Shown piece by piece: positions 18,323-22,232 of a DNA stretch of 64,000 bases. The position numbers and the translations under genes are program-made. The stretch is from Desulfuromonas sp. CSMB_57 (GTDB lineage: Bacteria > Desulfobacterota > Desulfuromonadia > Desulfuromonadales > Syntrophotaleaceae). Location of the stretch: NCBI RefSeq assembly GCF_020194955.2, contig NZ_JAFCIY020000045.1, positions 1 through 64,000 of the forward strand. The letters are read 5' to 3'. Each line of letters begins with the position of its first letter. Within the stretch, counting starts at the first letter, position 1. The notes under the pieces were generated by a model. That model worked only from the letters and a program-made list of their open reading frames with translations. It was not told the DNA's origin and made no database searches.

Positions 18323-19120
18323 TCAGTCCAGAACCACCTGCTCGACCTCATTCAGGGCGGTGCCGAGAAAGGCTCCGCCGACCCGTTGAAAACGCTCCGG
18401 CACGTCGGTAACAAAAAACCGGGCGCGAGACGGTTCGACCACCCGCAACCGGTTTTCGGCCCGCAGGCATTCAGCCACCGTCAAGGCGGTTGCTTCAGCA
18501 GAATCGATTAGCTGCACCTGCTCGCCGAGAACCTCCTGCAACACCCCCTTCAACAAAGGGTAATGGGTGCAACCCAGCACCAGAGTATCGATATTGCGGT
18601 TCAGCAGCGGTTGCAGATATTCGCGGGCGGTCAGGCGGGTAACCTGATGTTCGAGCCAGCCCTCTTCGACCAGGGGAACAAACAGGGGACAGGCGGCGGC
18701 GAAGACCTCGACACATGGATCCAGGGACTGGATGGCCCGGGTATAAGCTTGGCTCTTGATGGTCCCCTCGGTACCAATAACACCGATCCGTCCGTTGCGA
18801 GTGAGACTCACCGCGCGGCGGGCGCCGGGCTCGATGACGCCGATGACCGGCAGGCGAAACCGCTCGGCCAGTTCGTCAAGGGCCACAGAAGAGGCGGTAT
18901 TGCACGCCACGACCAGCATCTTGACCTGGTGATGAACCAGAAATGCTGCCGCTTCCAGGGCATAGCGCCGCACCGTAGCGGGGCTTTTGCTGCCGTAGGG
19001 CACCCGGGCCGTATCTCCCAGGTACAGCAATTGTTCGCCGGGCAGCAACTGCAAAATCTGTTTGAGAACGGTCAGACCACCGACCCCTGAATCAAAAACC
19101 CCGATACTGCGTTCCGACAA
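18323..19120 (-). CDS. murI: Glutamate racemase (TTG start proposed)
   Basis: Converts L- to D-glutamate for peptidoglycan. The 265-residue product starts SERSIGVFDSGVGGLTVLK and has both catalytic cysteines, in VVACNTASSVAL and VLGCTHYPLL, and the YGSKSP motif. The only in-frame ATG (19208-19210) has no ribosome site and would lie within about 14 bases of the transcription start predicted from the promoter at 19232-19261. It would also add 30 atypical residues. A TTG at 19118-19120, preceded by GGGGTG, gives a protein of typical length, so that start is proposed. It opens the minus-strand run that continues with the GerMN gene and metH. Confidence 0.88.
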   Translation of the reverse strand: MSERSIGVFDSGVGGLTVLKQILQLLPGEQLLYLGDTARVPYGSKSPATVRRYALEAAAFLVHHQVKMLVVACNTASSVALDELAERFRLPVIGVIEPGARRAVSLTRNGRIGVIGTEGTIKSQAYTRAIQSLDPCVEVFAAACPLFVPLVEEGWLEHQVTRLTAREYLQPLLNRNIDTLVLGCTHYPLLKGVLQEVLGEQVQLIDSAEATALTVAECLRAENRLRVVEPSRARFFVTDVPERFQRVGGAFLGTALNEVEQVVLD

Positions 19121-19231
19121 CGTACACCCCGTCCGTGTTCCAGGTTTGTGTCCCCTCGAAAAACCATTCAGCAGTCGTGGCGAAGGGCCTTGCGCCTCCA
19201 ATTCAGCCATGGAAGCGGAATTAAATTGGTA

Positions 19232-19261
19232 ATACTAGGGGCAAAATGTCCGGCAAGTCAA
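19232..19261 (-). promoter_or_regulatory. Sigma-70 type promoter of murI
   Basis: Minus strand TTGACT (19256-19261), an 18-base spacer and TAGTAT (19232-19237). It implies an untranslated leader of about 100 bases before the TTG start. Confidence 0.5.
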
Positions 19262-19283
19262 GAACCATCACCATTTTGCCCCT

Positions 19284-19426: not shown

Positions 19427-19759
19427 ATGGATATGAATGCTGTCCGGGAATATCTCGAACCGTTCCGCACCGAGCGTATCGTCGCCCTGCTGCAGGAAAT
19501 CAACCTGGGCGATCTGCTCTACAACCGTTGGTTCCTGGCCGGCCTGGCCCTGTTCACCATCGTGGCCCTGAGCCTGCGCCGCCAGGCCCTGGTGCTGACG
19601 GTTCTGGCGGCCCTGGCCTTTGCCTGCCTGGTCGACTACTCCCTGCAGAAGAACCCGGCCATCGATCGGGTCGGCAGTGAACCGGTGCTGGTTTTTGTAG
19701 CCGGCGGCCTGGTGCTGATTTTCGTCATGATCTATTTTCTTTTTATCAAACACGACTGA
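19427..19759 (+). CDS. Small two-helix membrane protein of unknown function
   Basis: A 110-residue protein that I do not recognise. The first 35 residues are soluble and amphipathic (VREYLEPFRTERIVALLQEINLGD without the initial MDMNA). They are followed by a membrane helix (about 36-70, interrupted by a basic SLRRQ turn) and a second at the C-terminus (about 88-107), with a charged loop between. ATG 19427 follows AAGGAAAAGGACG. It is 17 bases upstream of the HgdB-like gene, with its own promoter ahead, so it is probably the first gene of that operon and could tether or partner the dehydratase pair; this is inference. Confidence 0.75.
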   Translation: MDMNAVREYLEPFRTERIVALLQEINLGDLLYNRWFLAGLALFTIVALSLRRQALVLTVLAALAFACLVDYSLQKNPAIDRVGSEPVLVFVAGGLVLIFVMIYFLFIKHD

Positions 19760-19776
19760 AAGCCTGAAAACGTTTT

Positions 19777-20760
19777 ATGGTTGGATTCACCACTACCGTT
19801 CCCCTGGAAATCATCATCGCCGCCGGACGGCGCCCCGTTGATCTGAACAACCTCTTCATCAGCGATCCTGCCTGCCAGAGTCTCCTCGACGAGGCGGAAC
19901 TGGCTGGTTTTCCGCGCAATTGCTGCGGCTGGATCAAGGGCCTGTACAGCGTCGCCCGCCGCGCCGGCATCGAGGAAATCGTCGCCGTCACGGAAGGCGA
20001 CTGTTCCAATACCAAGGCCCTGATGGAGGTACTGCAACTGCAGGGCGTCACCACCATCCCGTTCGCCTACCCCTATGACCGCTCCTCGGCCACCCTGGCT
20101 CACGAAATCGCCAAGCTGGCCGATCATTTCGGCGTCAGCCCTGAGCAGACGAATCGCGCCTGGCGCGAACTGAACCGGGTGCGTCGACTGGTCCATGAAA
20201 TCGATCGCCTGACCTGGCAGGAGGATTTGGTCACCGGCCAGGAAAATCACCTCTGGCAGGTCAGCACATCAGACCTGAACGGCGATCCAGAAACCTTTGC
20301 GGGACAAGCCGCGGTCTTTCTGGACGAGGCGCGCCGACGGCCGCCCCTGAAGGCAGGTTTGCGCCTGGCCTACATCGGCGTGCCACCCATATTCACCGAC
20401 CTTTATGCTACCCTGGAAAGTCTCGGAGCACGGGTGGTTTTCAATGAAACCCAGCGCCAGTTCTCCATGCCCTATGCCGCCGAGTCCCTGATCGATCAGT
20501 ACCGGCGTTACACCTACCCCTACGACATCTTTACCCGGCTGGCGGACATCGAGGAAGAAATTGCCCGCCGTCGCATCGATGGCGTGATCCATTATGTCCA
20601 GTCCTTCTGCTTCCGCCAGATTGAAGATCTGATCGTCCGGCAACGGCTGGCCCCCCTGCCCATACTGACTCTGGAGGGGGATCGTCCCGGGCCCCTGGAT
20701 GCGCGGACCCGCATCCGGCTGGAGGGTTTCGTGGAGTTGCTGAAAGGGCGGCGGCGATGA
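19777..20760 (+). CDS. HgdB/BcrB-like Fe-S protein, probable double-cubane cluster protein
   Basis: The 327-residue protein belongs to the 2-hydroxyacyl-CoA dehydratase / benzoyl-CoA reductase D-component superfamily. It opens with the family's VPLEIIIAAGRRPVDLNN segment and ends with a cysteine-containing helix (SFCFRQIEDLIV, Cys278) and TLEGDRPGPLDARTRIRLE. Cysteines lie at 33, 49, 50, 76 and 278. Unlike the true dehydratases and reductases, there is no second HgdA/BcrC-like subunit and no CoA-transferase or acyl-CoA gene nearby. A lone subunit with its own ATPase is the arrangement of the double-cubane [8Fe-9S] cluster protein and its reductase described in Carboxydothermus, which reduces small molecules such as acetylene. 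The next gene overlaps it by 4 bases (ATGA). The in vivo substrate is unknown. Confidence 0.82.
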   Translation: MVGFTTTVPLEIIIAAGRRPVDLNNLFISDPACQSLLDEAELAGFPRNCCGWIKGLYSVARRAGIEEIVAVTEGDCSNTKALMEVLQLQGVTTIPFAYPYDRSSATLAHEIAKLADHFGVSPEQTNRAWRELNRVRRLVHEIDRLTWQEDLVTGQENHLWQVSTSDLNGDPETFAGQAAVFLDEARRRPPLKAGLRLAYIGVPPIFTDLYATLESLGARVVFNETQRQFSMPYAAESLIDQYRRYTYPYDIFTRLADIEEEIARRRIDGVIHYVQSFCFRQIEDLIVRQRLAPLPILTLEGDRPGPLDARTRIRLEGFVELLKGRRR

Positions 20761-21533
20761 CCGGCATCGGCATCGATCTCGGCAGTCGCCAGGTCAAACT
20801 GGCCGCCCTGGACGGCGAGCGCCTGTTGTGGCTGCACGCCTTTGACACCATCCCCTTCTACAAGCGCTATGCCAGCCGCCGGGACGGCCAACTGCGTCTG
20901 CGTTTTGAGGAACTCGGCCTGCTCTCTACGGAGCAGTGGTGCACCACGCCCCTGGTGGTGACCGGCTACGGCCGCAATACCATCGATCTGGTCGGGGCCC
21001 GGGTCATCCCGGAAATCCAGGCGCACATCGAGGGCGCCCGGTTCCAGACCGGCCTGGAGACCTTCACCCTGCTTGATCTGGGCGGCCAGGACACCAAGGT
21101 GGCACGGTTGGAAAACGGCATCCTCATGGATTTCATTATGAACGACAAATGCGCCGCTTCTTCCGGCCGCTACCTGGAAAACATGGCCCAGGTCCTCGAC
21201 ATCTCCCTGGAGGAACTGGCCCGGCATCACCAGCATCCGGTTGCCCTGGACGCCACCTGCGGCATCTTCGGCGAGAGCGAACTGATCGGCAAGATCATCG
21301 AAGGGCATTCCCTGGAAAGCCTGTGCGCCGGGGTCAACCAAACCCTGATCAAACGGGTCGGGCCGATGCTGGCGCGTTTTCCCCAGGACACTTTGGTGCT
21401 GACCGGCGGCGTAGCGCGAAATACGGCATTTGTGATTCTGCTGCGAGACATCACCCGCGCCGAACTCATCGTCCCGCCCCACCCCCAGCACAACGGCGCC
21501 CTGGGCTGCGCCGTCGCCGCCGGACGCGGCTGA
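20757..21533 (+). CDS. BadF/BcrA/HgdC-type ATPase activator (archerase)
   Basis: A 258-residue ASKHA-fold ATPase that would bind a [4Fe-4S] cluster at the dimer interface and drive electrons at very low potential into the protein encoded just upstream. Visible motifs: phosphate loops GIDLGSRQVKLA (residue 4 on) and LLDLGGQDTKVA, the cluster cysteines Cys132 in NDKCAASSGRYLE and Cys168 in DATCGIFGESEL, and the adenosine motif VLTGGVARNTAF. Length matches HgdC (about 260). The ATGA overlap with the HgdB-like gene implies translational coupling and one-to-one partnership. It ends 33 bases from the convergent queH. No other dehydratase gene is in view. Confidence 0.92.
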   Translation: MTGIGIDLGSRQVKLAALDGERLLWLHAFDTIPFYKRYASRRDGQLRLRFEELGLLSTEQWCTTPLVVTGYGRNTIDLVGARVIPEIQAHIEGARFQTGLETFTLLDLGGQDTKVARLENGILMDFIMNDKCAASSGRYLENMAQVLDISLEELARHHQHPVALDATCGIFGESELIGKIIEGHSLESLCAGVNQTLIKRVGPMLARFPQDTLVLTGGVARNTAFVILLRDITRAELIVPPHPQHNGALGCAVAAGRG

Positions 21534-21566: not shown

Positions 21567-22232
21567 TCAGCCCGACAAAGCCTCCGCATCACAGGCTATC
21601 GGCGGCCTGCCTTGGGCCAGCCGCCACGCGTTGCCGTCGCGCAGACTGAAGCGGCAACCGCAGTATTCCTGCTGATAAAAATCCTCCTGCCGCGCCACTT
21701 CGACCATGCGTTGGGCACCGCCGCCTTTGCGCCAGTTGGCAGGCAGGAAGGAAACCCCGGGTTGCCCTGCGGCGGCGGCCCGTCCCGCGGCATTGACCTG
21801 TTCCAGGATTTTCCAGCGCGAAATGCCGAGAGTGGTGGCAAAGGCCGAAAAACCCAGGCGGGCCGCCAGACCGGCCGAATTTTCCAATCGCATTCGAAAG
21901 CAGAGGTCGCAACGTTCACCCCGCTCCGGGCAGTCCTCCAACCCTTTCATCGCCGCCAGCCAAATGCTCGGCTGGTAGTCTGCACACAGGAGGGGAACCC
22001 CCAAACGATCGGCGAAACGGCGCATTTCTTCCAGACGCCGCGCATATTCGCTGCGCGGATGAATATTGCTGTTGTCGAACCAAAGCGTCACCACCACCGC
22101 GGCCTTGAGCAGGTCTTGGAGAATCCCGCCGGCACAGGGCGCGCAGCAGACATGCAGCAGCAGGGCTGCGGGAAGGGCTCTGTCGGGACGCCCCTGCAGC
22201 GCAGCCGAACCTTTATGGGGTGACCGGTTCAT
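21567..22232 (-). CDS. queH: Epoxyqueuosine reductase QueH
   Basis: The 221-residue protein catalyses the last step of tRNA queuosine synthesis, the B12-independent reduction of epoxyqueuosine. The cysteine sets that bind the [4Fe-4S] cluster and a neighbouring metal are all present: LHVCCAPCAGG near residue 28, CPERGERCDLCFRMRLE near residue 101, and EYCGCRFSLRD near residue 192. The aspartate/asparagine-rich TLWFDNSNIHP motif and TTLGISRWK fit the family. ATG 22232 follows CGGAG. queC and folE2, earlier steps of the same pathway, lie at 47.5-49.0 kb. The promoter overlaps a striking palindrome (see 22290-22332). Confidence 0.93.
   Translation of the reverse strand: MNRSPHKGSAALQGRPDRALPAALLLHVCCAPCAGGILQDLLKAAVVVTLWFDNSNIHPRSEYARRLEEMRRFADRLGVPLLCADYQPSIWLAAMKGLEDCPERGERCDLCFRMRLENSAGLAARLGFSAFATTLGISRWKILEQVNAAGRAAAAGQPGVSFLPANWRKGGGAQRMVEVARQEDFYQQEYCGCRFSLRDGNAWRLAQGRPPIACDAEALSG

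Follow-up and report, generated by a model that had tools for sequence, protein, structure and literature searches.

2-Hydroxyacyl-CoA dehydratases (HADs) hold their cluster at a three-cysteine site, and ATPases of the HgdC kind are homodimers with a bridging [4Fe-4S] cluster. The available text of the BzdNO paper (PMC11971306) names as characterised members of the BCR/HAD superfamily heterodimers acting on CoA esters, double-cubane cluster proteins (DCCPs) with two cubanes, and, as a distant relative, a thiouridine desulfidase with a [4Fe-5S] cluster. In the same text, the [8Fe-9S] cluster of BzdN is held by six cysteines, the [4Fe-4S] cluster of BzdO is held by three cysteines and a water or hydroxide, and loss of the distal sub-cluster is described as the origin of the catalytic [4Fe-4S]-OH2 site.

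Three co-directional genes, here named M, H, and A, occupy positions 19427-21533 on the plus strand of the window, i.e., the whole stretch of 64,000 nucleotides analysed (Table 1). The ATG of A at 20757 and the TGA of H at 20758-20760 overlap as ATGA, and the three-gene layout given by the sequence-only reading is borne out by the coordinates. The M-H-A order is kept in many genera, indicating that the arrangement is not due to chance, and the three-gene operon is real. The murI gene lies beside M in 24 of the 27 M-bearing loci of the host's order, the locus in the window counted in. The QueH gene on the other side was not found in the short loci of relatives from this order. The inverted repeat between murI and M consists of AGGGGCAAAATG at 19237-19248 and CATTTTGCCCCT at 19272-19283. 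Allowing up to one mismatch, the window contains no further copy of the 12-nt repeat, and the repeat was not found in the corresponding gaps of relatives, of which 15 of the 16 loci tried had a usable stretch. This search of the gaps covered perfect repeats of 8-14 nt within approximate bounds taken from open frames, and gave only one unrelated 8-nt repeat. A promoter scan detected no sigma-70-like site before M on the plus strand, so that a promoter belonging to M itself, as proposed earlier, is not supported. Rfam gave no match at the gathering threshold.

Table 1. Features in and around the M-H-A operon, with positions in the window
Feature	Position	Strand	Remarks
M, 110-residue membrane protein	19427..19759	+	No Pfam or NCBIfam match at E 0.01; directly 5' of H
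H, 327-residue lone HgdB-like protein (HGD-D), predicted single-cubane type	19777..20760	+	PF06050; AF2 model; own clade
A, 258-residue activator ATPase (BcrAD/HgdC type)	20757..21533	+	TIGR00241, 176 bits; C132 and C168 invariant
murI (glutamate racemase), divergent from M	18323..19210	-	PF01177; conserved context, not claimed as a part of the machine
QueH-type epoxyqueuosine reductase	21567-22232	convergent with A	PF02677, 202 bits
Perfect 12-nt inverted repeat with a 23-nt spacer in the murI-M gap	19237..19283		Possible operator
Cys50 codon, presumed cluster ligand of H	19924..19926	+	70/70 rows; aligns with C76 of the DCCP type
Cys76 codon, presumed cluster ligand of H	20002..20004	+	70/70 rows; aligns with C106 of the DCCP type
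Cys278 codon, presumed cluster ligand of H	20608..20610	+	69/69 rows reaching it; aligns with C333 of the DCCP type

H belongs to the BCR/HAD superfamily (HGD-D) with a PF06050 match of 117 bits (cut-off 28.4), and no other curated family in Pfam or NCBIfam is matched above its cut-off. The AF2 model of H (pLDDT 93.9, pTM 0.90) adopts the BCR/HAD fold, with 6eno as the best Foldseek match (E 1e-14). VIA Z scores are 32.8 for BzdN, 32.3 for DCCP, and 31.1 for HadC, where rows below Z 8 were read as common arrangements. The relatives of H were collected from the host's order, in which 30 of 58 genomes were matched, one weakly via another HGD-D type, and from named records, in which 160 loci encode one and 80 were kept. 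The seeds used for the named records, VTEGDCSN and VFNETQRQ, favour cysteine-bearing members. A match in G030 (L032, 18.5 bits) was disregarded because it is of another HGD-D type. In L099 and L106, two open frames share the H coding sequence, which may reflect a broken gene or a sequencing error.

The position of H relative to DCCP should be noted, since the sequence-only reading had assigned the layout to a DCCP and its reductase. H and A would then be a divergent pair of this kind with a double-cubane cluster. The sole NCBIfam match of H is indeed the double-cubane model, the best Foldseek match is 6eno, and a lone subunit accompanied by an activator is found as in DCCP. However, H scores 41 bits against this model, missing the curated cut-off of 350 by about 300, and four normal H rows score 37-55 bits. 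In a tree of 13 of the available H rows and 43 other HGD-D proteins of H-bearing genomes, H forms a separate clade, set off by a branch with 100/100 support and a length of 1.79 changes per column, and the true DCCP of the host is placed elsewhere. The tree rows that pass NCBIfam cut-offs are DCCPs (L001, L143, and L144, those tested) and BcrC (L155). As the sequence-only reading had expected, H does not fall within the HadB- and HadC-like rows, though these labels denote best scores below the curated cut-offs; no tested row reaches the HadB or HadC cut-off, and hence no certified dehydratase is known in the tree. On the sequences compared, H is a branch of its own in the BCR/HAD superfamily, outside the other HGD-D groups.

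The cysteines separate H from DCCP further. All 12 DCCP-type rows keep six cysteines (C38, C76, C106, C272, C300, and C333 in the numbering of the host protein), whereas the 11 normal H rows all keep the proximal trio and all lack the distal trio, i.e., three of the six DCCP cysteines are kept. With half of the cluster ligands missing, a double-cubane cluster in H is hardly credible. The trio of H, C50, C76, and C278, is conserved in the 70-row alignment, for which 11 of the 80 named loci were dropped (nine without the start motif and two with split frames), and also in 20 of 20 loci from 20 genomes of the phylum, among which L213 is the same locus as L077. Contrarily, C33 and C49, which had been proposed together with the trio as the cluster site, occur in only 9 and 6 of the 70 rows, respectively, so that only the trio part of that proposal holds. 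Because H keeps only C50, C76, and C278 of the six DCCP ligands, and because three cysteines suffice in BzdO according to the available text of PMC11971306, H should carry one [4Fe-4S] cluster that has an open site. The lost distal ligands align with, or lie beside, residues conserved in H, namely T5, E224 to Q228, and Y247 and Y249, although N223, T225, Q226, and H158 vary outside the class. The near-invariant residues T5, D22, N24, N25, N157, E224, Q228, Y247, Y249, H272, and R280 are candidate pocket residues.

A exceeds the TIGR00241 activase cut-off (125.4 bits) and matches PF01869 with 110 bits (cut-off 31.5) and 4eht with E 5e-40. C132 and C168, invariant in 18 of 18 sequences, we take to be the two cysteines per monomer for the bridging cluster. 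The assignment of H and A to an archerase-type pair thus agrees with the PF06050 and TIGR00241 matches.

The host genome (3.14 Mb, 94 contigs) encodes two PF06050 proteins, H and a 385-residue protein on another contig. The latter is a DCCP by its NCBIfam score (508 bits against a cut-off of 350) and has an activator of its own, so that a true DCCP pair exists apart from H and A, and H is a lone subunit as was read from the sequence; no second subunit was found among the PF06050 proteins of the host genome. The gene neighbouring the DCCP and its activator at L001 (C34:40045-44076) looks like selD (selenophosphate synthase) by eye. In G001, a one-contig genome, the one PF06050 protein and the one activator match are H and A themselves. 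The two different subunits of 2-hydroxyacyl-CoA dehydratases are thus missing in both genomes, the host having H and one DCCP and G001 having H only.

H and A might nevertheless be a 2-hydroxyacyl-CoA dehydratase acting on an acyl-CoA, either as a homodimer or together with a partner that was not recognised, considering the fold shared with HadC (Z 31.1) and the three-cysteine cluster site as in BzdO (available text of PMC11971306). However, besides the missing second subunit in the host and G001, H lies outside the HadB- and HadC-like rows (labels below cut-off), and no recognised acyl-CoA gene recurs among the clustered neighbours, while by eye an acyl-CoA-synthetase-like frame is repeated in 3 of the 20 phylum loci. 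The H model starts at about HadC residue 30, indicating that a part of the usual N-terminus is absent. We consider this assignment distinctly unlikely.

M is predicted to have three hydrophobic helices (residues 34-49, 53-73, and 85-108, in a low-confidence model) instead of the two read earlier. With a pLDDT of 62, the structure model was not good enough for a fold search. The alignment of M contains no conserved residue suggesting a mechanism, and no residue that tracks the presence of H was seen by eye between M of H-bearing and H-less genomes. Its gene position beside H is conserved. M precedes H in 27 of 27 loci of the host's order reaching far enough (two stop at contig ends) and in 44 of 44 named Desulfuromonadia-type loci with upstream sequence (three start at contig ends). 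Weaker M matches, of 22-48 bits, are found in L096, L098, and L099. Of 54 listed genomes having both M and H, 51 carry them on the same contig and strand, all adjacent and separated by 6-188 bp (median 23), and three carry them on different contigs. The pair counts for M, H, and the cytochrome described below were taken from the listed rows, with 20 of 79 H rows and 14 M rows (13 of f23 and f25 and one of f24) left out. In the class, 247 of 277 genomes have M, 238 have the cytochrome, and 79 have H, at thresholds of E 1e-3, E 1e-9, and E 1e-60, respectively; among the 187 well-completed ones, the numbers are 176, 170, and 59. M is therefore commoner than H in the class and mostly occurs without it.

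In H-less genomes, M is divergent from murI in 12 of 13 loci reaching upstream (L181 has no murI, and L135 ends too early upstream). The next gene after M encodes, in 14 of 14 such loci, a small protein that contains two CxxCH motifs and a single hydrophobic stretch at its N-terminus. This diheme c-type cytochrome has 83-92 residues in nine aligned sequences, and the one tested gave no Pfam match over the cut-off. The two genes are adjacent in 79 of 80 listed H-less genomes of the host's order (79 of 79 same-contig pairs), one pair being split between contigs; the count covers this order only, since many cytochrome rows of f22-f25 and 14 M rows were omitted. Of five left-out genomes inspected by eye, G150, G249, G254, and G256 have the two genes adjacent and G222 has them on different contigs. 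The cytochrome matches in f25 are often weak (E about 1e-13), making the pairing less sure there. The M-cytochrome pair (L183, L186-L191, and others) forms a nearly class-wide module without a name, usually beside murI.

In M-H-A operons, the cytochrome gene is located beyond A, with a gap of 781-1007 bp from H in 28 genomes and on another contig in one. The cytochrome search was negative for 11 of the 14 genomes in the host's own family, among them the host, and for family f6, another carrier of M-H-A. This distribution shows that the cytochrome is not a required electron source, because the host and most of its family possess M-H-A without it. Moreover, archerases need a very low potential, for which a periplasmic cytochrome is unlikely to be the donor, and the idea of an electron source is thus not supported on the cytochrome side. 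The sequence-only reading had regarded the membrane partner as a clue to an electron source or a transported substrate. M is conserved beside H in all 51 same-contig pairs, but is a clue of another kind, being nearly class-wide, mostly H-less, and in the H-less genomes paired with the cytochrome. Neither of the outcomes that would have told against the sequence-only reading, a placement of H inside the dehydratases or a second subunit elsewhere with M not conserved next to the pair, was observed. The nearest named loci to that of the host are from Pelobacter, for which few c-type cytochromes and their loss are described in the available parts of PMC3543383 and PMC2669807; the absence of the cytochrome in the host fits this loss if the host is of that kind. 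The cytochrome-free M-H-A families and the H-less M-cytochrome loci demonstrate that H-A and M-cytochrome each occur without the other. We propose that M and the cytochrome have a function of their own and that H-A is a losable addition.

Family f4 provides a different combination. In G016, G036, G047, and G132, both the dedicated A and the full cysteine trio of H are missing, whereas M, H, and the cytochrome remain, and the cytochrome directly follows H with a gap of 36-64 bp in the four. An H-type activator was not found in these genomes, the best matches scoring 127-146 bits, compared with 303-502 bits for six adjacent activator partners in the same search. The 90 normal rows have 57 near-invariant H positions; all four f4 proteins have lost 21 of these and all four retain 25, and the remaining 11 vary. 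The lost ones include N24, N25, N157, Y247, H272, Q275, and R280, and the presumed pocket residues T5, D22, E224, and Y249 are kept in all four. The dN/dS ratio of H is 0.155 for G036/G047 and 0.38 for G016/G132 (synonymous distance 1.1), compared with 0.04-0.08 for three normal pairs. H of f4 is under purifying selection in the closest pair, more weakly than normal H. This constraint on a protein without the cysteines suggests that H has a role beyond catalysis or is a slowly relaxing remnant, and H appears to be in one of these two states in f4. G055, a fifth f4 genome, has M and the cytochrome without H.

Judging from gene order and co-retention, M most likely serves in Desulfuromonadia and some other classes as an inner-membrane tether for H, though their adjacency may be synteny inherited beside murI. 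M and the cytochrome would in the latter case be unrelated to H-A, an old block retained beside murI, which is compatible with the enzymatic part of our main reading. The adjacency of M and the cytochrome without H-A in all 79 same-contig pairs, the occurrence of H-A beside murI without M in L075, L091, and L093, and the absence of M beside H in 16 of the 20 phylum loci agree with such retention. Contrarily, M lies directly 5' of H in four contexts, M-H-A-cytochrome, M-H-A, M-H-cytochrome (f4), and M-H alone (other classes), the gap is as small as 6-188 bp, and even the cysteine-less H is retained between M and the cytochrome. Mere retention is hence somewhat unlikely. A bolder extension of the tether is a third kind of archerase, in which a lone, ATP-driven single-cubane enzyme with a polar non-CoA substrate, docked on M near the periplasmic diheme cytochrome, ties cytoplasmic chemistry of extremely low potential to the respiratory or envelope state; we regard this extension as doubtful.

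H is not confined to the class. An even sample of 395 genomes from the phylum contained H in 117, with a single match in 116; some handles of this set duplicate genomes of the named loci (e.g., G455/L077 and G509/L098). In the 20 phylum loci, A is adjacent to H in four, M in four, and murI in one (L204, as murI-M-H), and L202 ends just after H. For the activator test outside the class, 60 of 109 H-bearing genomes were taken, of which 13 have an H-type activator above 200 bits and all 60 have some activator. The scarcity of adjacent A and of H-type activators indicates that A is not an obligate operon partner there. Some activator is also present in 17 of 36 H-less genomes (11 of 30 within the class, 6 of 6 in other classes), and co-occurrence of H and activators thus does not discriminate in the other classes. 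Ten named loci, from Firmicutes (such as Pelotomaculum and Desulfotomaculum) and one from Armatimonadetes, have murI directly before H, and A is found in three of them. At the Firmicutes-type loci, genes for a metallo-hydrolase, rph, and rdgB recur downstream (rph and rdgB by eye) and a cell-wall amidase gene recurs upstream. Since murI is linked to H in more than one phylum, D-glutamate or envelope metabolism is hinted at, but old synteny may also account for the link.

A PP-loop gene directly follows M-H in L096 (PF01171) and in L098, L201, L209, and L214 (by similarity or eye), all outside the class, suggesting another functional neighbour. A gene resembling the TldD/PmbA type by eye is found about 1.2-2.9 kb past the H start in L203, L212, and L213. 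The PP-loop genes in L096, L098, and the three phylum loci, and the distant relationship to the [4Fe-5S] thiouridine desulfidase given in the available text of PMC11971306, would be explained if H were a sulfur enzyme modifying RNA or nucleotides instead of an electron-driven reductase. However, H has a dedicated ATPase activator in the class, the activator and the cysteines are jointly absent in f4, no PP-loop gene adjoins H in the window, and none was recognised among the recurrent neighbours in the class. Such a function is highly improbable.

The reading that we favour, and hold to be rather probable, is that H and A are an archerase pair on a distinct branch of the BCR/HAD superfamily, in which a single-cubane H acts on a polar, non-CoA substrate and M serves as a tether. 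A would take an electron from ferredoxin or flavodoxin and drive it, with ATP hydrolysis, onto the single [4Fe-4S] cluster of H, which by homology would be held by C50, C76, and C278. The open fourth iron would face the space filled by the distal cubane in DCCP. As placed from the alignment, the polar near-invariant residues probably line that space, and such a lining suggests that the substrate is probably small and polar rather than an acyl-CoA. H probably reduces this substrate or dehydrates or deaminates it in a radical manner. It would need no second subunit of another type and is likely to work as a homodimer, and M most likely docks H at the inner membrane.

A literature search recognised no study of the H family. 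A transcriptome table in the available part of PMC5701242 lists a '2-hydroxyglutaryl-CoA dehydratase D-component', Ddes_0545, with a value of 3.97, an entry that could not be matched to H. H represents a further architecture of the BCR/HAD superfamily, with a conserved cluster site and a wide distribution in the phylum. The f4 lineage is a natural experiment separating catalysis from a second role, and G001, in which H is the sole HGD-D protein and A the sole activator match, allows the question to be addressed in a single organism. We know of no earlier membrane link for this superfamily, and M, if it is a true docking protein, would to our knowledge be the first.

Among the known systems, class I benzoyl-CoA reductase BzdNO (PDB 8s02) shares with H the fold (Z 32.8, chain B taken as BzdN) and the three-cysteine cluster of BzdO, but H has no second subunit and no aromatic-degradation genes are recognised near it. 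The fold and the activator family are also those of the (R)-2-hydroxyisocaproyl-CoA dehydratase HadBC and its activator (PDB 3o3m and 4eht), where a three-cysteine site is likewise expected, whereas H is one subunit instead of two, matches from about residue 30, and lies outside the HadB- and HadC-like rows. DCCP with its reductase DCCP-R (PDB 6eno, 7yyl, and 7yzm; NF040772) has in common with H-A the fold (VIA Z 32), a lone subunit with one activator, and the proximal three cysteines; H differs from it in that the match begins at DCCP residue 70, the distal three cysteines are absent, the clade is separate, and the operon contains a membrane protein.
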